DNA from: Kribbella qitaiheensis
Lineage (GTDB): Bacteria; Actinomycetota; Actinomycetes; Propionibacteriales; Kribbellaceae
Assembly (NCBI RefSeq): GCF_014217565.1
Contig: NZ_CP043661.1
Coordinates: 2,666,001-2,730,000 of the forward strand
Direction of reading: 5' to 3'
Length of the DNA: 64,000 nucleotides
Part shown: in pieces, positions 58,933 through 63,430 of the stretch
Position numbering within the stretch: the first letter of the stretch is position 1
Layout of the letters: the number at the start of each line of letters is the position of its first letter
Notes under the pieces: model-generated
Databases searched by the model: none
Told to the model about the DNA's origin: nothing
What the model saw: only the letters and a program-made list of their open reading frames with translations
Program-made: the position numbers and the translations under genes

Positions 58933-59080
58933 CCACGCACCTTAACGAGTCCCCGGCCCTTCCAGGACAGCCTCAGGTGTGGAGACAGCAGGGATGACCT
59001 GCCGGATCGACCATCAAGAACTGCGTCGCAACCTCCGACTCACCTCGAGACGTTGCACGGGGGTGTGTCAACACCCGGGA

Positions 59081-59709
59081 TCACCGTGCCGCCGCAGCGG
59101 CAACCTCCGAAAGTCTGCGGTTGAGCTCGGTGGAGGCGTGCGTTTCCGAGATAGGGACAACGAATGCGAGTTCCCGTTGTGCGGCGAGTAGGTCACCCAG
59201 GTGCGCGTGGGTGAAGGCGACCACCAAACGAGCTCGGGGATCGTGAATATCGAATGCGTTGGCAGCTTGCCGATAGGCCTCTGAGAGCACGCCCACAGCG
59301 TCCGCGGTCGCGTCCCACCAGGCGGCAGCGCTCCTGGCGACCTGCCGCACAGCCTTCGCCGCCTGCCGTCGTAGCTGCTTCTCGCCCTCGAGCCTCGAGA
59401 TCCACTGCCGGGGCTCAGCGTCCGCCGAGAAGTGATCGACCCACAGATCCAGTCGCGTTTGCTTGAGCGTCCGATGCCAGTGAAACGTCTCGCGGTGCCG
59501 GTGTGGCACCCAGTCACAGCAGACCCCGTACCGGATGTCGAACTGTCCACCTTGACTGCCTGGACGTCGACCACCGCACGGATTCCGTCCGACAACCACC
59601 TGGCCCACAGCAGACCGCGAACGTGTTCGAAATCCACCACGACCGGCTACAAGGCCGCGCCGATCAAGTCCCTCGCCCGCTGTGCTGCGACTTCCTCGAG
59701 GCTGACCAC
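59081..59709 (-). pseudogene. Degraded gene of unknown function
   Basis: Reading from GTG 59709, good coding sequence (VVSLEEVAAQRARDLIGAAL, then VDFEHVRGLLWARWLSDGIR) is cut by TAG at 59647-59649. From about 59550-59560 it changes frame to a clear C-terminal half (DWVPHRHRETFHWHRTLK, and the end RRLSEVAAAAAR) that stops at 59081. One stop and one frameshift make this a pseudogene or a badly read region. I do not recognise the family. Confidence 0.6.
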
Positions 59710-59939
59710 CGCAGCACCTTATCCGGGCTGGATCGACTGTTCCCCTCTTAGCTCCGAACACGTGCCGGTCACTGACATCCCTTACGCAGATGGCCTTCGC
59801 GATCGGTTGCATTGCGGTCCAGCCACGGTGAGTCAGGGGTGTCTTCGCGCTGGTTTATGGAGCCGGTCGCCGGGTACCGGCCGAGCGGCTGGGGGCCTGG
59901 TATGTCGTCGTACATCATCAGGATCTAGGAGGCAGCGAC

Positions 59940-60866
59940 ATGGCTGGAGCAGGTGCGGCGGGCAGGCTGGTCAAAGCCTGGGGCATCGGGGTCAAGGACT
60001 TACCGCGGAACACGACCTGGCTGCTGACGAAGGCGTTGACGCCGTTGGAAGCGACAAAGGAAGCGGCCGCAAGCGCGACTCAGTCGGCCGGAAGCGGGCT
60101 GGTGGACATCGCTCGCCATGCGGGAGCTTCTGTCATGGACGTGTTGCCTGTGGGCGATTCGATCGAAACGAAACTCCAGCGAGCCAGAGCCGCGGCCGAC
60201 GAAGCCCAGCAGGCGGAGGAGAACGCCGTCCGCGAGGCCGAGGAGGCGAAGGCGCGCAGCGACGAGGCACGGCAGGTCGCCGAGCGGTGCCGGGCGTACG
60301 TGCGCGACGTCGAGCAGGAGCAGACCCAAGAGGTCAACGACAAGGTCGCCGAGGCTCGCCGTGAGGCCGATGCGCGGATCGAGCGGGCTCGTGTCTCGGC
60401 GCAGACAGACGCCGACCGCGTGATGCAACGGGCGAAGGCGGAGGCAGACGACCGCGTCGCGAAGGCACGCGACGAAGCGGAGGCGGCACAGTCGAAGGCC
60501 AAGCAGACGATGGCCGACGCGACGGCCAGCCTCGCGGAGGCCAGACGGCTGGCCGACGAGGCCACGGAAGCGACGAAGGCAGCCGCCGAGGAGGCGCACC
60601 GACAGGCCGCGCAGCTTGCCGCGAACGCCGATCGCGAGGCCAGGAGCGCCGACGAACGGGTGGCCGAGGCCGAGCAGGTCCGGTCGCGCGCCCGCGTCCA
60701 CCCAAAGCGCAACGGACGGACTCAAGGCGCCGCGGACCTCAACGAGATGACCAAGGTGGACCTGCTGAACCTCGCCACGACAGAGGACGTCAAAGGCAGG
60801 TCCGCGATGAGCAAGACCGAACTGGTGACCGCCCTCAAACGATCGACCGGATCGAAGCGGCGATAG
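59940..60866 (+). CDS. Long coiled-coil protein with C-terminal Rho-N/SAP-like motif
   Basis: The 308-residue protein has an N-terminal segment (1-75) with short hydrophobic helices, a coiled coil from about 80 to 245 rich in Ala, Glu, Lys and Arg heptads, and a C-terminal MTKVDLLNLATTEDVKGRS-type segment resembling the Rho-N or SAP helical nucleic-acid-binding motif. AGGAGGC precedes ATG 59940. It is the first of four adjacent small genes in one direction. The function is unknown. Confidence 0.65.
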   Translation: MAGAGAAGRLVKAWGIGVKDLPRNTTWLLTKALTPLEATKEAAASATQSAGSGLVDIARHAGASVMDVLPVGDSIETKLQRARAAADEAQQAEENAVREAEEAKARSDEARQVAERCRAYVRDVEQEQTQEVNDKVAEARREADARIERARVSAQTDADRVMQRAKAEADDRVAKARDEAEAAQSKAKQTMADATASLAEARRLADEATEATKAAAEEAHRQAAQLAANADREARSADERVAEAEQVRSRARVHPKRNGRTQGAADLNEMTKVDLLNLATTEDVKGRSAMSKTELVTALKRSTGSKRR

Positions 60867-60884
60867 CCAGGAGTGGAGAAGATC

Positions 60885-61064
60885 ATGGGACTGTTACACA
60901 GGAAGAGCCGGTGGGAGCGGATCGCGGAGCCGGTTGCGACCGCTGCGAACAACGCGGTGCACCGCGGTGCTGTGCGCAACGGCGTCGCCGCCGCTGCAGC
61001 GGCGATCGGCATGAGCGCTGCCAGCGCGGTGGTCTCGTCGCGGCGGAACAAGGACAAGAAGTGA
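60885..61064 (+). CDS. Small basic protein of 59 residues
   Basis: ATG 60885 has a GGAGAAG site upstream. The peptide has basic ends around a central Ala-rich hydrophobic run (VAAAAAAIGMSAASAVV) and could be a membrane-associated helix. It is part of the small-gene cassette; its stop TGA overlaps the next GTG as GTGA. Confidence 0.5.
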   Translation: MGLLHRKSRWERIAEPVATAANNAVHRGAVRNGVAAAAAAIGMSAASAVVSSRRNKDKK

Positions 61065-61264
61065 AGCTGCGCAGTCTCGCGGTGTTCGGCGCGGGGTACG
61101 TGCTGGGAGCCAAGGCGGGACGTGAACGCTATGCACAGATTGTCGAAGCGATCCAGACGGCGTCGCAGCGATTCGATGAGGTCCGTCGTCAACGCGGCAA
61201 GCCTGCTTCCCGAAAGGGAAGCGACGGGCTCGACAGCTATCTGGATGATGCCAGGCGCAACTAA
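61061..61264 (+). CDS. YtxH-like small protein
   Basis: The 67-residue product starts with GTG 61061, overlapping the upstream stop as GTGA. An N-terminal hydrophobic stretch (AVFGAGYVLGAKAG) is followed by a polar helix (QIVEAIQTASQRFDEVRR). This is the YtxH-like layout seen in many actinobacteria, often in envelope stress clusters. Role unknown. Confidence 0.6.
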   Translation: MKLRSLAVFGAGYVLGAKAGRERYAQIVEAIQTASQRFDEVRRQRGKPASRKGSDGLDSYLDDARRN

Positions 61265-61511
61265 CACCCTGGCGGGCGGCGCCCTAATACACACCTCGCT
61301 CGTCGCCCGCCTGCTCGGAGTGCGGCTGCTGACCGTGGAGGGGACGATCTTGCTGTCACCGGCGTCGTTCGCCGCACCGCCATCGGACCTCGCCCGCACA
61401 ACAACCCATCTCGCAGCGACCGCCGGGCCCAAGGGGATCGGGGCACGGCTGGGCCCGTCGGCGCGGCTGATCGACGAAAGCATCGACGATCTGCGGTCGC
61501 TCGATCACTGA
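61245..61511 (+). CDS. Small protein of 88 residues
   Basis: ATG 61245 (or 61248) lies in the end of the previous gene, an overlap of 20 bases. The protein has a hydrophobic N-terminal half and ends RLIDESIDDLRSLDH, which looks like real coding. It completes the four-gene cassette. Confidence is limited because GC-rich antisense frames also read through. Confidence 0.45.
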   Translation: MMPGATNTLAGGALIHTSLVARLLGVRLLTVEGTILLSPASFAAPPSDLARTTTHLAATAGPKGIGARLGPSARLIDESIDDLRSLDH

Positions 61512-61689
61512 GCGAGCGCGCCGGAACGGCTGGGACGCGTAGCTGCGGACCACCGTGCGGAAACGGGCGGTACCGCGGTGTCACGAGCGGTTCTGAACCG
61601 TTGCGCGGCAGGGGGAGTGGGTGCACTGTCGAAACGTCCAGACGGGCCGGGAACGGTCTCGGACCGATGGGTCGTCCCGGGAGGGAATC

Positions 61690-63430
61690 GTGGGCAGACC
61701 ACGCCTCATCATCGCTTCCGTCGCAGCGCTCGCAGCCGCCAGCTCCGGCGCCGCGGTCAGTGCGTCCGCGTCACCCGCCGACACCCGGGTGAGCGTCGGC
61801 AGCCCCACGACACCCTTCTCGCAGAACAAGCAGAACGAGCCTGCCGTCGCGATCGACGCACACGACCCGGCAGTGATGGTGGCAGGTTCGAACGACGAGA
61901 TCGACGAGGAGTCCTGCGCGGGCCGGTGACCCAGCTACCTGTCCGTTCACGGACGGCGTCGGGGTCTCCGGCGTGTACTTCTCATTCGACGGCGGCGGGT
62001 CCTGGACCCAGCCGACATACTCCGGCTGGACCGCTCGGCACTGCCTCGGCCCGGTCGCGTGTGCCCCGCGGGTGGGTCCGATCGGGACGCTGCCCCGTTA
62101 CTACGAGGCCGGGCTGGTGTCCGACGGCGACCCGGCGGTGGCCTTCGGACCGCGCCCCGGGCCCGACGGCACCTTCTCCTGGGCCAACGGGTCGCGGTTG
62201 TACTACGCGAACCTGACGTCGAACTTCGCCACCAGCCGCGCACTCGAGACCTTCCGCGGCTTCGAGGCGATCGCGGTGTCACGGACGGATGACGCCCGCG
62301 CTGCCGCCGGCGGTAGCGCCTCAGCTTGGGCCGAACCGGTGATCATCTCGAAGCAGTCGGCCACGACCTTCTCCGACAAGGAGCAGATCTGGGCTGACAA
62401 CGCATCGAGCAGCCGGTTCTTCGGTCGCGTGTACACCTGCTGGGCCAGCTTCCGCAGCAACAGCCAGGGCCAGGCTTTCCCGGCGCCTCTGACCGTGGCG
62501 GTGTCCAGCGACGGTGGAGGCAGGTGGACCACGAAGCAGGTCGGGCCCGCAGGCAGCAACCGCATCAACCAACAGGCCGATGGCTGCGTCGTACGCACCG
62601 ACAGCACCGGCAACGTCTACATCTTCGGTGTCGGCGCACGCCGCGGCGCCACCGTGCAGTTGATGTACAAGTCGACCGATGGCGGCGCGCACTGGGCAGG
62701 ACCGACCGTGGTGGCCCCCGTGGTTTCGCCAGGTGTCATCGACCCGGTTCTCGGCCGCCCGGTCATGGACGGTATCGCCGGCGCCCGGGTCGACCTGGCC
62801 GGCGGGCCGAACGTCGACATCGCGAACGGCCGTCCGACCGGCGCCCGCGCGACCGATGAGCTTTTCATGACCTGGTCGGATGGCCGGGCCGGCCTGAACC
62901 ACGAGCAGCTGATGCTGACCTGGTCGCGCAACGGCGGCACGTCCTGGGCCTCGCCGACCGCTGTGGCGCTGGCCGCGGGCGACCGGCCGGTCTACACCGC
63001 ACCAACTGTTTCGCCGGACGGCACAGACCTGTACGTCGTGCACAACTCGTTCACGACGCCTTACCGCAACGACACCACCAGCCCGCGCGGCCTGATCGGT
63101 GAAGTGCGGCACGCGAACGTGGCGGCCGGCGTACCGACCGGGTGGTCGACACTGGAGCGCAGCCCCGTGGGCGACCCGAGGGGCAGCAGCCAGAACAGCC
63201 TGACGGCGGAGTTCCTCGGTGACTACGTGTACGCCGCGTCGACGAACGACTCCGCGGTCGCCGTCTGGAACGACACCCGGAACGCCGGCGTGTGCTCGTC
63301 GATCAACGCCTATCGGGCCTCGCTGTACACGGCCAGTCCGATGGCGGCCCCGAACGTGCTCGGCACCTGCCCGGCTGCTTTCGGCAACAGCGACATCTTC
63401 GGAGGGAGGTACCCCGACCCGACCCCGTGA
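61690..63430 (+). pseudogene. Secreted Asp-box (sialidase-like) protein with frameshift
   Basis: GTG 61690 (GGGAGGGA upstream) opens a signal peptide (ASVAALAAASSGAAVSASA) and a short mature region, but TGA at 61927 stops the frame. One base extra (T61927) separates it from a long frame that reads to 63430. The restored protein of about 580 residues has four Asp-box motifs (SFDGGGSW, SSDGGGRW, STDGGAHW, SRNGGTSW), typical of secreted beta-propeller hydrolases such as sialidases. The catalytic identity is uncertain. Either a pseudogene or a sequence error. Confidence 0.7.

Follow-up and report, generated by a model that had tools for sequence, protein, structure and literature searches.

The locus analysed here raises the question of whether four closely packed open frames in a Kribbella genome (8.16 Mb, single contig) constitute a real gene cassette and, if so, what such a cassette might do. 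The window, by which we mean the whole 64-kb stretch of DNA that was analysed, carries a long frame, CC, followed by three small frames, SB, YT and N88 (Table 1). The preliminary description of this DNA had listed four tightly packed frames with GTGA and nested overlaps, all of which were found at the positions claimed, and an 88-residue fourth protein, for which the forward frame does exist at the site claimed, its length being 87 residues plus the stop codon rather than 88. Among the Kribbella copies of the cassette the overlap between SB and YT reads either GTGA or ATGA; overlaps of this kind would allow translational coupling and were counted in favour of reading the four genes as one operon.

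Table 1. Features of the cassette and its upstream region (positions in the window).
Feature	Position	Strand	Description
Sigma-B-type promoter (predicted), GTTT-N15-GGGTAC	59853-59877	+	-35 at 59853-59856, -10 at 59872-59877; 62 nt ahead of the CC start codon
Invariant 15-nt 5'-leader element, GGCTGGGGGCCTGGT	59887-59901	+	identical in 7/7 Kribbella
CC	59940-60866	+	308 aa; predicted helical rod, C-terminal Rho_N domain
SB	60885-61064	+	59 aa; one predicted hydrophobic helix
YT	61061-61264	+	67 aa; GTG start overlaps the SB stop (GTGA)
N88	61248-61511	+	87 aa plus stop; overlaps YT by 17 nt; a second possible start, ATG, at 61245

The coding status of the small frames was examined in an alignment of seven Kribbella genomes that covered the three small frames and the end of CC, and synonymous and other changes were counted in every frame. 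The differences sit mainly at the third positions of each gene's own frame, with pN/pS values of 0.31 for SB, 0.31 for YT and 0.36 for N88 downstream of the YT stop, as compared with 0.41 to 2.7 in the five remaining frames of SB and N88; most of the alternative frames contain stops. The constraint stops at the N88 stop codon, the sequence directly after it giving a pN/pS of 1.13. The part of CC that was counted, its last 20 codons, gave 0.40, and the CC frame is open and alignable across 300 residues in five lineages. An antisense gene opposite N88 was considered and rejected, since the third-position-matched reverse frame, although its ratio is low as well (0.41), contains stops and is poorer than the forward frame. 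This indicated that SB, YT and N88 are real genes under purifying selection in their own frames and that the four frames are more than chance open frames. Judged from selection alone, the small frames appear to be translated, so that the condition of untranslated small frames, set as a refutation in the preliminary description, came out in favour of its proposal.

The exact beginning of N88 is a special case. The N88 frame is unconstrained where it runs inside YT (pN/pS 0.96), which puts the beginning of N88 proper near the YT stop. Candidate start codons in the window copy are those of the ATGATG at 61245-61250. In the six other Kribbella copies (6/7) ATG, GTG and TTG are all absent around the point where constraint sets in, yet the sequence downstream of it is constrained. 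Elsewhere the start is ATG in the g15 Nocardioidaceae (L067, L130-L133) and GTG in L070 and L139. In the six Kribbella a rare start codon, an ATG inside YT that is common to 7/7 Kribbella copies, or a frameshift from YT are possible, which makes the N-terminal end of N88 less secure than the remainder.

The order CC-SB-YT-N88 was found in Kribbella (L057-L062), in Nocardioidaceae (L067, L130-L133, L135, L138), in a third family of the order (G049), in another family of the class (L139) and in another class (L070), where family labels other than Kribbella are our own reading of kinship groupings. Among 99 relatives, SB is present in exactly the 13 that have a full-length or near full-length CC (Fisher's Exact Test, P = 1.6e-16, with genomes treated as unrelated); one further CC entry, a weak match to the C-terminus only, lies outside these 13. 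Similarly, among 38 Kribbella genomes YT and CC are present in an identical set of seven. The expectation that the genes co-occur across actinobacteria was therefore confirmed, with the gene order kept across classes. The prevalence is low, 20/397 genomes in the order and 4/395 in the class sample, and given that five candidate places were scored per genome in these scans the counts of absence are approximate. The cassette is carried by scattered soil actinobacteria, and the relatives of CC show 33-89% identity across five lineages, those in Kribbella sharing the cassette at 85-89% identity.

Not all copies are complete. No recognisable YT was found in L136, CC lacks a full Rho_N domain in G043 and G059, and in the third family of the order N88 is cut short in G046 and missing from G057, some copies thus keeping CC and SB without an intact N88. 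Either the parts are dispensable or these copies are decaying. In genus g7 (L064, L065, L066, L068) the cassette looks decaying, as seen in the copies of G043, G046, G057 and G059, and gas-vesicle genes are present in 6/6 sampled genomes of that genus.

Because the flanking genes differ between lineages the cassette stands alone, and a longer conserved operon was ruled out on the same ground. A sialidase-like gene lies directly 3' of the cassette only in the window; in L058 and L060 some 9 kb separate the two. In the window this BNR-type gene (61690-63430) is interrupted, with 61690-61929 and 61973-63430 in different frames, which may reflect a pseudogene or a sequencing error. Two further candidates, a plasmid or phage mobile element and an anti-phage defence system, were also rejected: CC had no match in the plasmid or phage collection and viral contigs contained no SB relative, and PADLOC returned weak helix-type matches for CC (best E 0.01) and none for the small proteins. 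No description of this gene set was found in the open-licence literature, where absence is weak evidence; the author of the preliminary description likewise knew no system with this gene order. The cassette is genuine, co-conserved and apparently undescribed.

CC opens with the motif G-x-K-D-L-P-R-N-x-x-W. Its AlphaFold model, obtained from a shallow alignment, shows residues 75-251 as one helix, most of it at pLDDT 91-98, and two short C-terminal helices, the remainder of the model having low confidence; the predicted rod of 177 residues, at 0.15 nm each, would be about 26 nm long. Of the four copies whose hydrophobic periodicity was calculated, L135 has its peak near 102.4 degrees and the three others at 99.4-99.6 degrees, the latter value suggesting that the helix is straight, continuous and amphipathic and not a heptad coil. 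In the C-terminal part (residues about 266-303) 9/12 family members match Rho_N (PF07498) at E <= 0.01 (best 2e-7), so that the Rho-N/SAP-like C-terminus reported earlier is, as judged by profile matches, secure at the level of the family; the window copy itself falls below the Pfam cut-off (E 0.0094, 16.3 vs 24.9 bits). The putative Rho_N tip may bind nucleic acid. A PDB search with the CC profile gave generic helical proteins only.

The C-terminal motif, (T)K-x-E-L-x-x-L-A...GRS-x-M-x-K-x-E-L-x-x-A(L/I), is shared with the Rho_N/SAP-like C-termini of actinobacterial Ku, CsbD-like and other small proteins, and it also closes Ku-like proteins (L098, L099) in a related class (that of G196). Unlike in the Ku and CsbD-like carriers, in CC it closes a helical rod of about 300 residues encoded in an operon with three small proteins. 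Small Rho_N proteins were also seen adjoining true gas-vesicle clusters in other Kribbella (L077:3-269, L078:188-454, L081:2698-2961 and L176:11251-11526), and the CC profile matches two of them (E 4.6e-6 and 3.2e-4).

SB and YT are probably tiny membrane proteins. SB begins with F/L-H-R-K-S-x-W-E and has a hydrophobic helix at residues about 33-51 (mean hydropathy 1.7-2.0) with basic residues on either side. The hydrophobic stretch of YT is weak (0.5-0.85), and its motifs are GYVLGxKAGRERYxQI and a C-terminal D-S-Y-x-D. The label YtxH-like did not hold for YT, since none of 12 members matched any YtxH model (PF12732, no match at E <= 1). YT belongs instead to a widespread, unnamed actinobacterial family of small proteins with GYVLG(T/A)(K/R)AGRERYEQI, to other members of which its profile matches at E 1e-9 to 1e-12, and it differs from them in being shorter and tied to SB and N88. 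In a gas-vesicle cluster of genus g7 (L174:5958-6590) there is a protein whose start, GGYVLGRRKKAR, recalls YT; the YT profile does not match it. The preliminary description therefore stands as regards a genuine, co-conserved cassette with coding small frames, and fails as regards the Pfam membership of YT in YtxH. Two features that it did not contain, a probable relation of N88 to the gas-vesicle shell protein GvpA and a promoter of the sigma-B type, put the possible nature of the cassette in a different light.

N88 is probably a remote relative of GvpA; no single value is decisive and it is the several lines of comparison together that favour this. The N88 members matched one family each in Pfam and NCBIfam, both of them gas vesicle protein, with PF00741 weakly matched by 5/13 members (best E 0.05) and N88 remaining under its curated cut-off (25 bits). 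When the N88 profile was searched against 177,635 PDB sequences at E <= 10, the single match was GvpA (8gbs, E 0.07), and GvpA is thus the top or only match of N88 in three libraries. An hhalign comparison with ten GvpA/J/S proteins of the same order gave Prob 72%, E 3.3e-5 and 37 gapless columns, the controls SB and YT giving under 1% against the same set. In sequence, the putative strand-turn-strand core of N88, a predicted GvpA-like hairpin at residues about 8-38, aligns to GvpA, and the gapless 37-residue core shared with GvpA/GvpJ/GvpS (PF00741) reads L-x-x-G-V-V...L-x-G-V-x-L-L-x-(I/L)-(E/D)-A.

One alternative is that this likeness arose by convergence of short amphipathic hairpins, the operon then encoding further general-stress small proteins without a joint structure. 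The similarity is limited to about 37 residues, the single-sequence E value is only about 0.05 and the AlphaFold model of N88 is helical at the hairpin region, which speak for convergence, the poor confidence of that model being such that in the comparison with GvpA as a whole it weighs neither way. Against it, the N88-GvpA score of 31.5 exceeds the best of 400 column shuffles (21.5) and holds without the Kribbella rows; the N88 profile recovered from 7,895 ORFs the cassette N88s and then GvpA proteins only, and from 890 ORFs of gvp loci six proteins, all GvpA; and the gene order is kept across classes. We consider convergence unlikely.

Differences from GvpA/J/S are nevertheless clear: N88 lacks the helix 1 that precedes the hairpin in GvpA, the constrained region beginning at the hairpin itself, its C-terminus is variable, it lies below the Pfam cut-off and no other Gvp gene is recognised alongside it (the neighbouring genes scanned in the window included no GvpF/L, G, K, N or O). 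No protein of its own genome matched PF00741 at E <= 1e-5. With GvpA thus unrecognised in the genome and helix 1 missing from N88, a gas-vesicle cluster was rejected. Within Kribbella the genomes bearing PF00741 (9) and those with the cassette (7) do not overlap, for which chance is a possible explanation (38 genomes, P = 0.12).

The sequence ahead of CC suggests that the cassette lies behind a stress-type promoter. The string GTTT-N15-GGGTAC is exact in 7/7 Kribbella copies, 84-92 nt 5' of the CC start codon, and the upstream conservation among these copies starts at the GTTT. The pattern GTTT-N14-16-GGGTAY has a single match in the window, the site ahead of CC, and 17 sites in the genome as compared with 6 for the reversed control pattern; three of the 17 are identical copies that look to us like 16S rRNA sequence. 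A looser form, GNNT-N14-16-GGGTA, was found in 6/8 Nocardioidaceae copies (1-8% in shuffles), and the motif was absent upstream in L138, L139 and L070. One of the 17 precedes a sigma-factor gene: in L141 (genome 1114959, the same genome) a second GTTT-N15-GGGTAC site stands about 210 nt ahead of it. A search for a sigma-70-type promoter found none, and the genome has five SigBFG-type sigma genes, two of which exceed the curated cut-off. The published SigB consensus is GTTTAA-N12-14-GGGA/TAA/T, and the GTTT is retained in Streptomyces SigF/H/N promoters (PMC8346170). Written as GTTTxx-N13-GGGTAC, the present site falls inside this consensus of the SigB-type general stress regulons of Bacillus and Streptomyces; no description of the CC-SB-YT-N88 genes as members of such a regulon was found in the literature searched. 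Between promoter and CC lies the invariant leader element of Table 1, and Rfam gave no match within 59000-62500, a range that includes it.

The reading that we prefer, tentatively, is a stress-inducible scaffold that links membrane-associated small proteins to nucleic acid via the rod of about 26 nm. A SigB/F/G-type sigma factor would have CC-SB-YT-N88 transcribed as one unit; SB and YT would sit in or on the cytoplasmic membrane via their short hydrophobic helices; and N88, perhaps itself membrane-associated, would contribute a GvpA-type amphipathic hairpin that self-associates or lies on a hydrophobic surface. The 70 conserved residues at the N-terminus of CC would dock to SB, YT and N88, the rigid helix of CC would extend inward and the Rho_N tip would bind DNA or RNA. 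In a cell exposed to osmotic, desiccation or stationary-phase stress, the four proteins would then hold the nucleoid (or RNA) at the membrane or organise it there. The tests made here support the cassette, its coding status and co-occurrence, the promoter motif, the Rho_N domain and the N88-GvpA similarity; the membrane location, mutual binding, nucleic-acid binding and protection under stress are inferred. We counted in favour of the scaffold the conserved order with unlike flanks, the co-occurrence, the overlaps, the stress-type promoter, the sigma genes, the long helix, Rho_N and the SB helix, and against it the weak hydrophobicity of YT, the window Rho_N match below cut-off, the copies that lack a part and the lack of the promoter motif in L138, L139 and L070. 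As regards the earlier suggestion of an envelope or nucleoid-associated system, the parts of the cassette would suit an association with the envelope as well as with nucleic acid.

The most interesting rival of the scaffold is a GvpA-derived compartment or rib that holds no gas, in which N88 would polymerise via its hairpin, CC would form a helical belt like that of GvpC, SB and YT would anchor the structure to the membrane and Rho_N would tie it to the nucleoid. Such a structure would account for the specific resemblance of N88 to GvpA and for the periodicity of a continuous amphipathic helix in CC, but N88 is without GvpA helix 1, GvpF/G/K/L/N are missing among the window neighbours scanned and some copies with CC and SB have a shortened N88 or none; on balance it is improbable. 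A coat that would connect lipid, polyester or other storage inclusions with the nucleoid, in the manner of the Pseudomonas phasin PhaF, is less probable still. The C-terminus of PhaF has a DNA-binding role, and the long amphipathic helix of CC with its nucleic-acid-type C-terminus would make a PhaF-like layout. We use PhaF as a working analogy only, given that phasin profiles found no match among the 12 CC members scanned, that the C-terminus of CC is Rho_N and not Lys/Ala-rich, and that no polyester or other storage-polymer gene was recognised in the flanks; one CC member does match an apolipoprotein profile, possibly by composition bias, this and Rho_N being the only matches obtained. A PspA-like scaffold for repair under membrane stress, in which SB and YT would be the partners in the membrane and Rho_N would serve RNA or regulation, would suit the stress-type promoter and the long helix with small hydrophobic proteins, but the same members matched no PspA/IM30 profile and to our knowledge PspA carries no Rho_N domain, which makes it the least plausible of these readings.

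What is new here is the assembly, for which no described match was found; two of its parts lie in or near known superfamilies, GvpA and Rho_N, and its type of regulation is known. It is conceivable, if somewhat doubtful, that the GvpA family has a second life outside gas vesicles, in which N88 with CC, SB and YT would build, under stress, a structure anchored in the membrane and tethered to the nucleoid, different from gas vesicles and from all described compartments. If N88 is a true relative of GvpA, the gas-vesicle shell fold acts without the gas-vesicle assembly factors, which would bear on the origin of gas vesicles and on what the hairpin is capable of by itself. Should the cassette encode the proposed scaffold, one operon would give these scattered actinobacteria a compact, stress-switched connection from the membrane to nucleic acid, built of four small parts. 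Either way, four nameless conserved protein families gain a promoter, a set of partners and a testable model.
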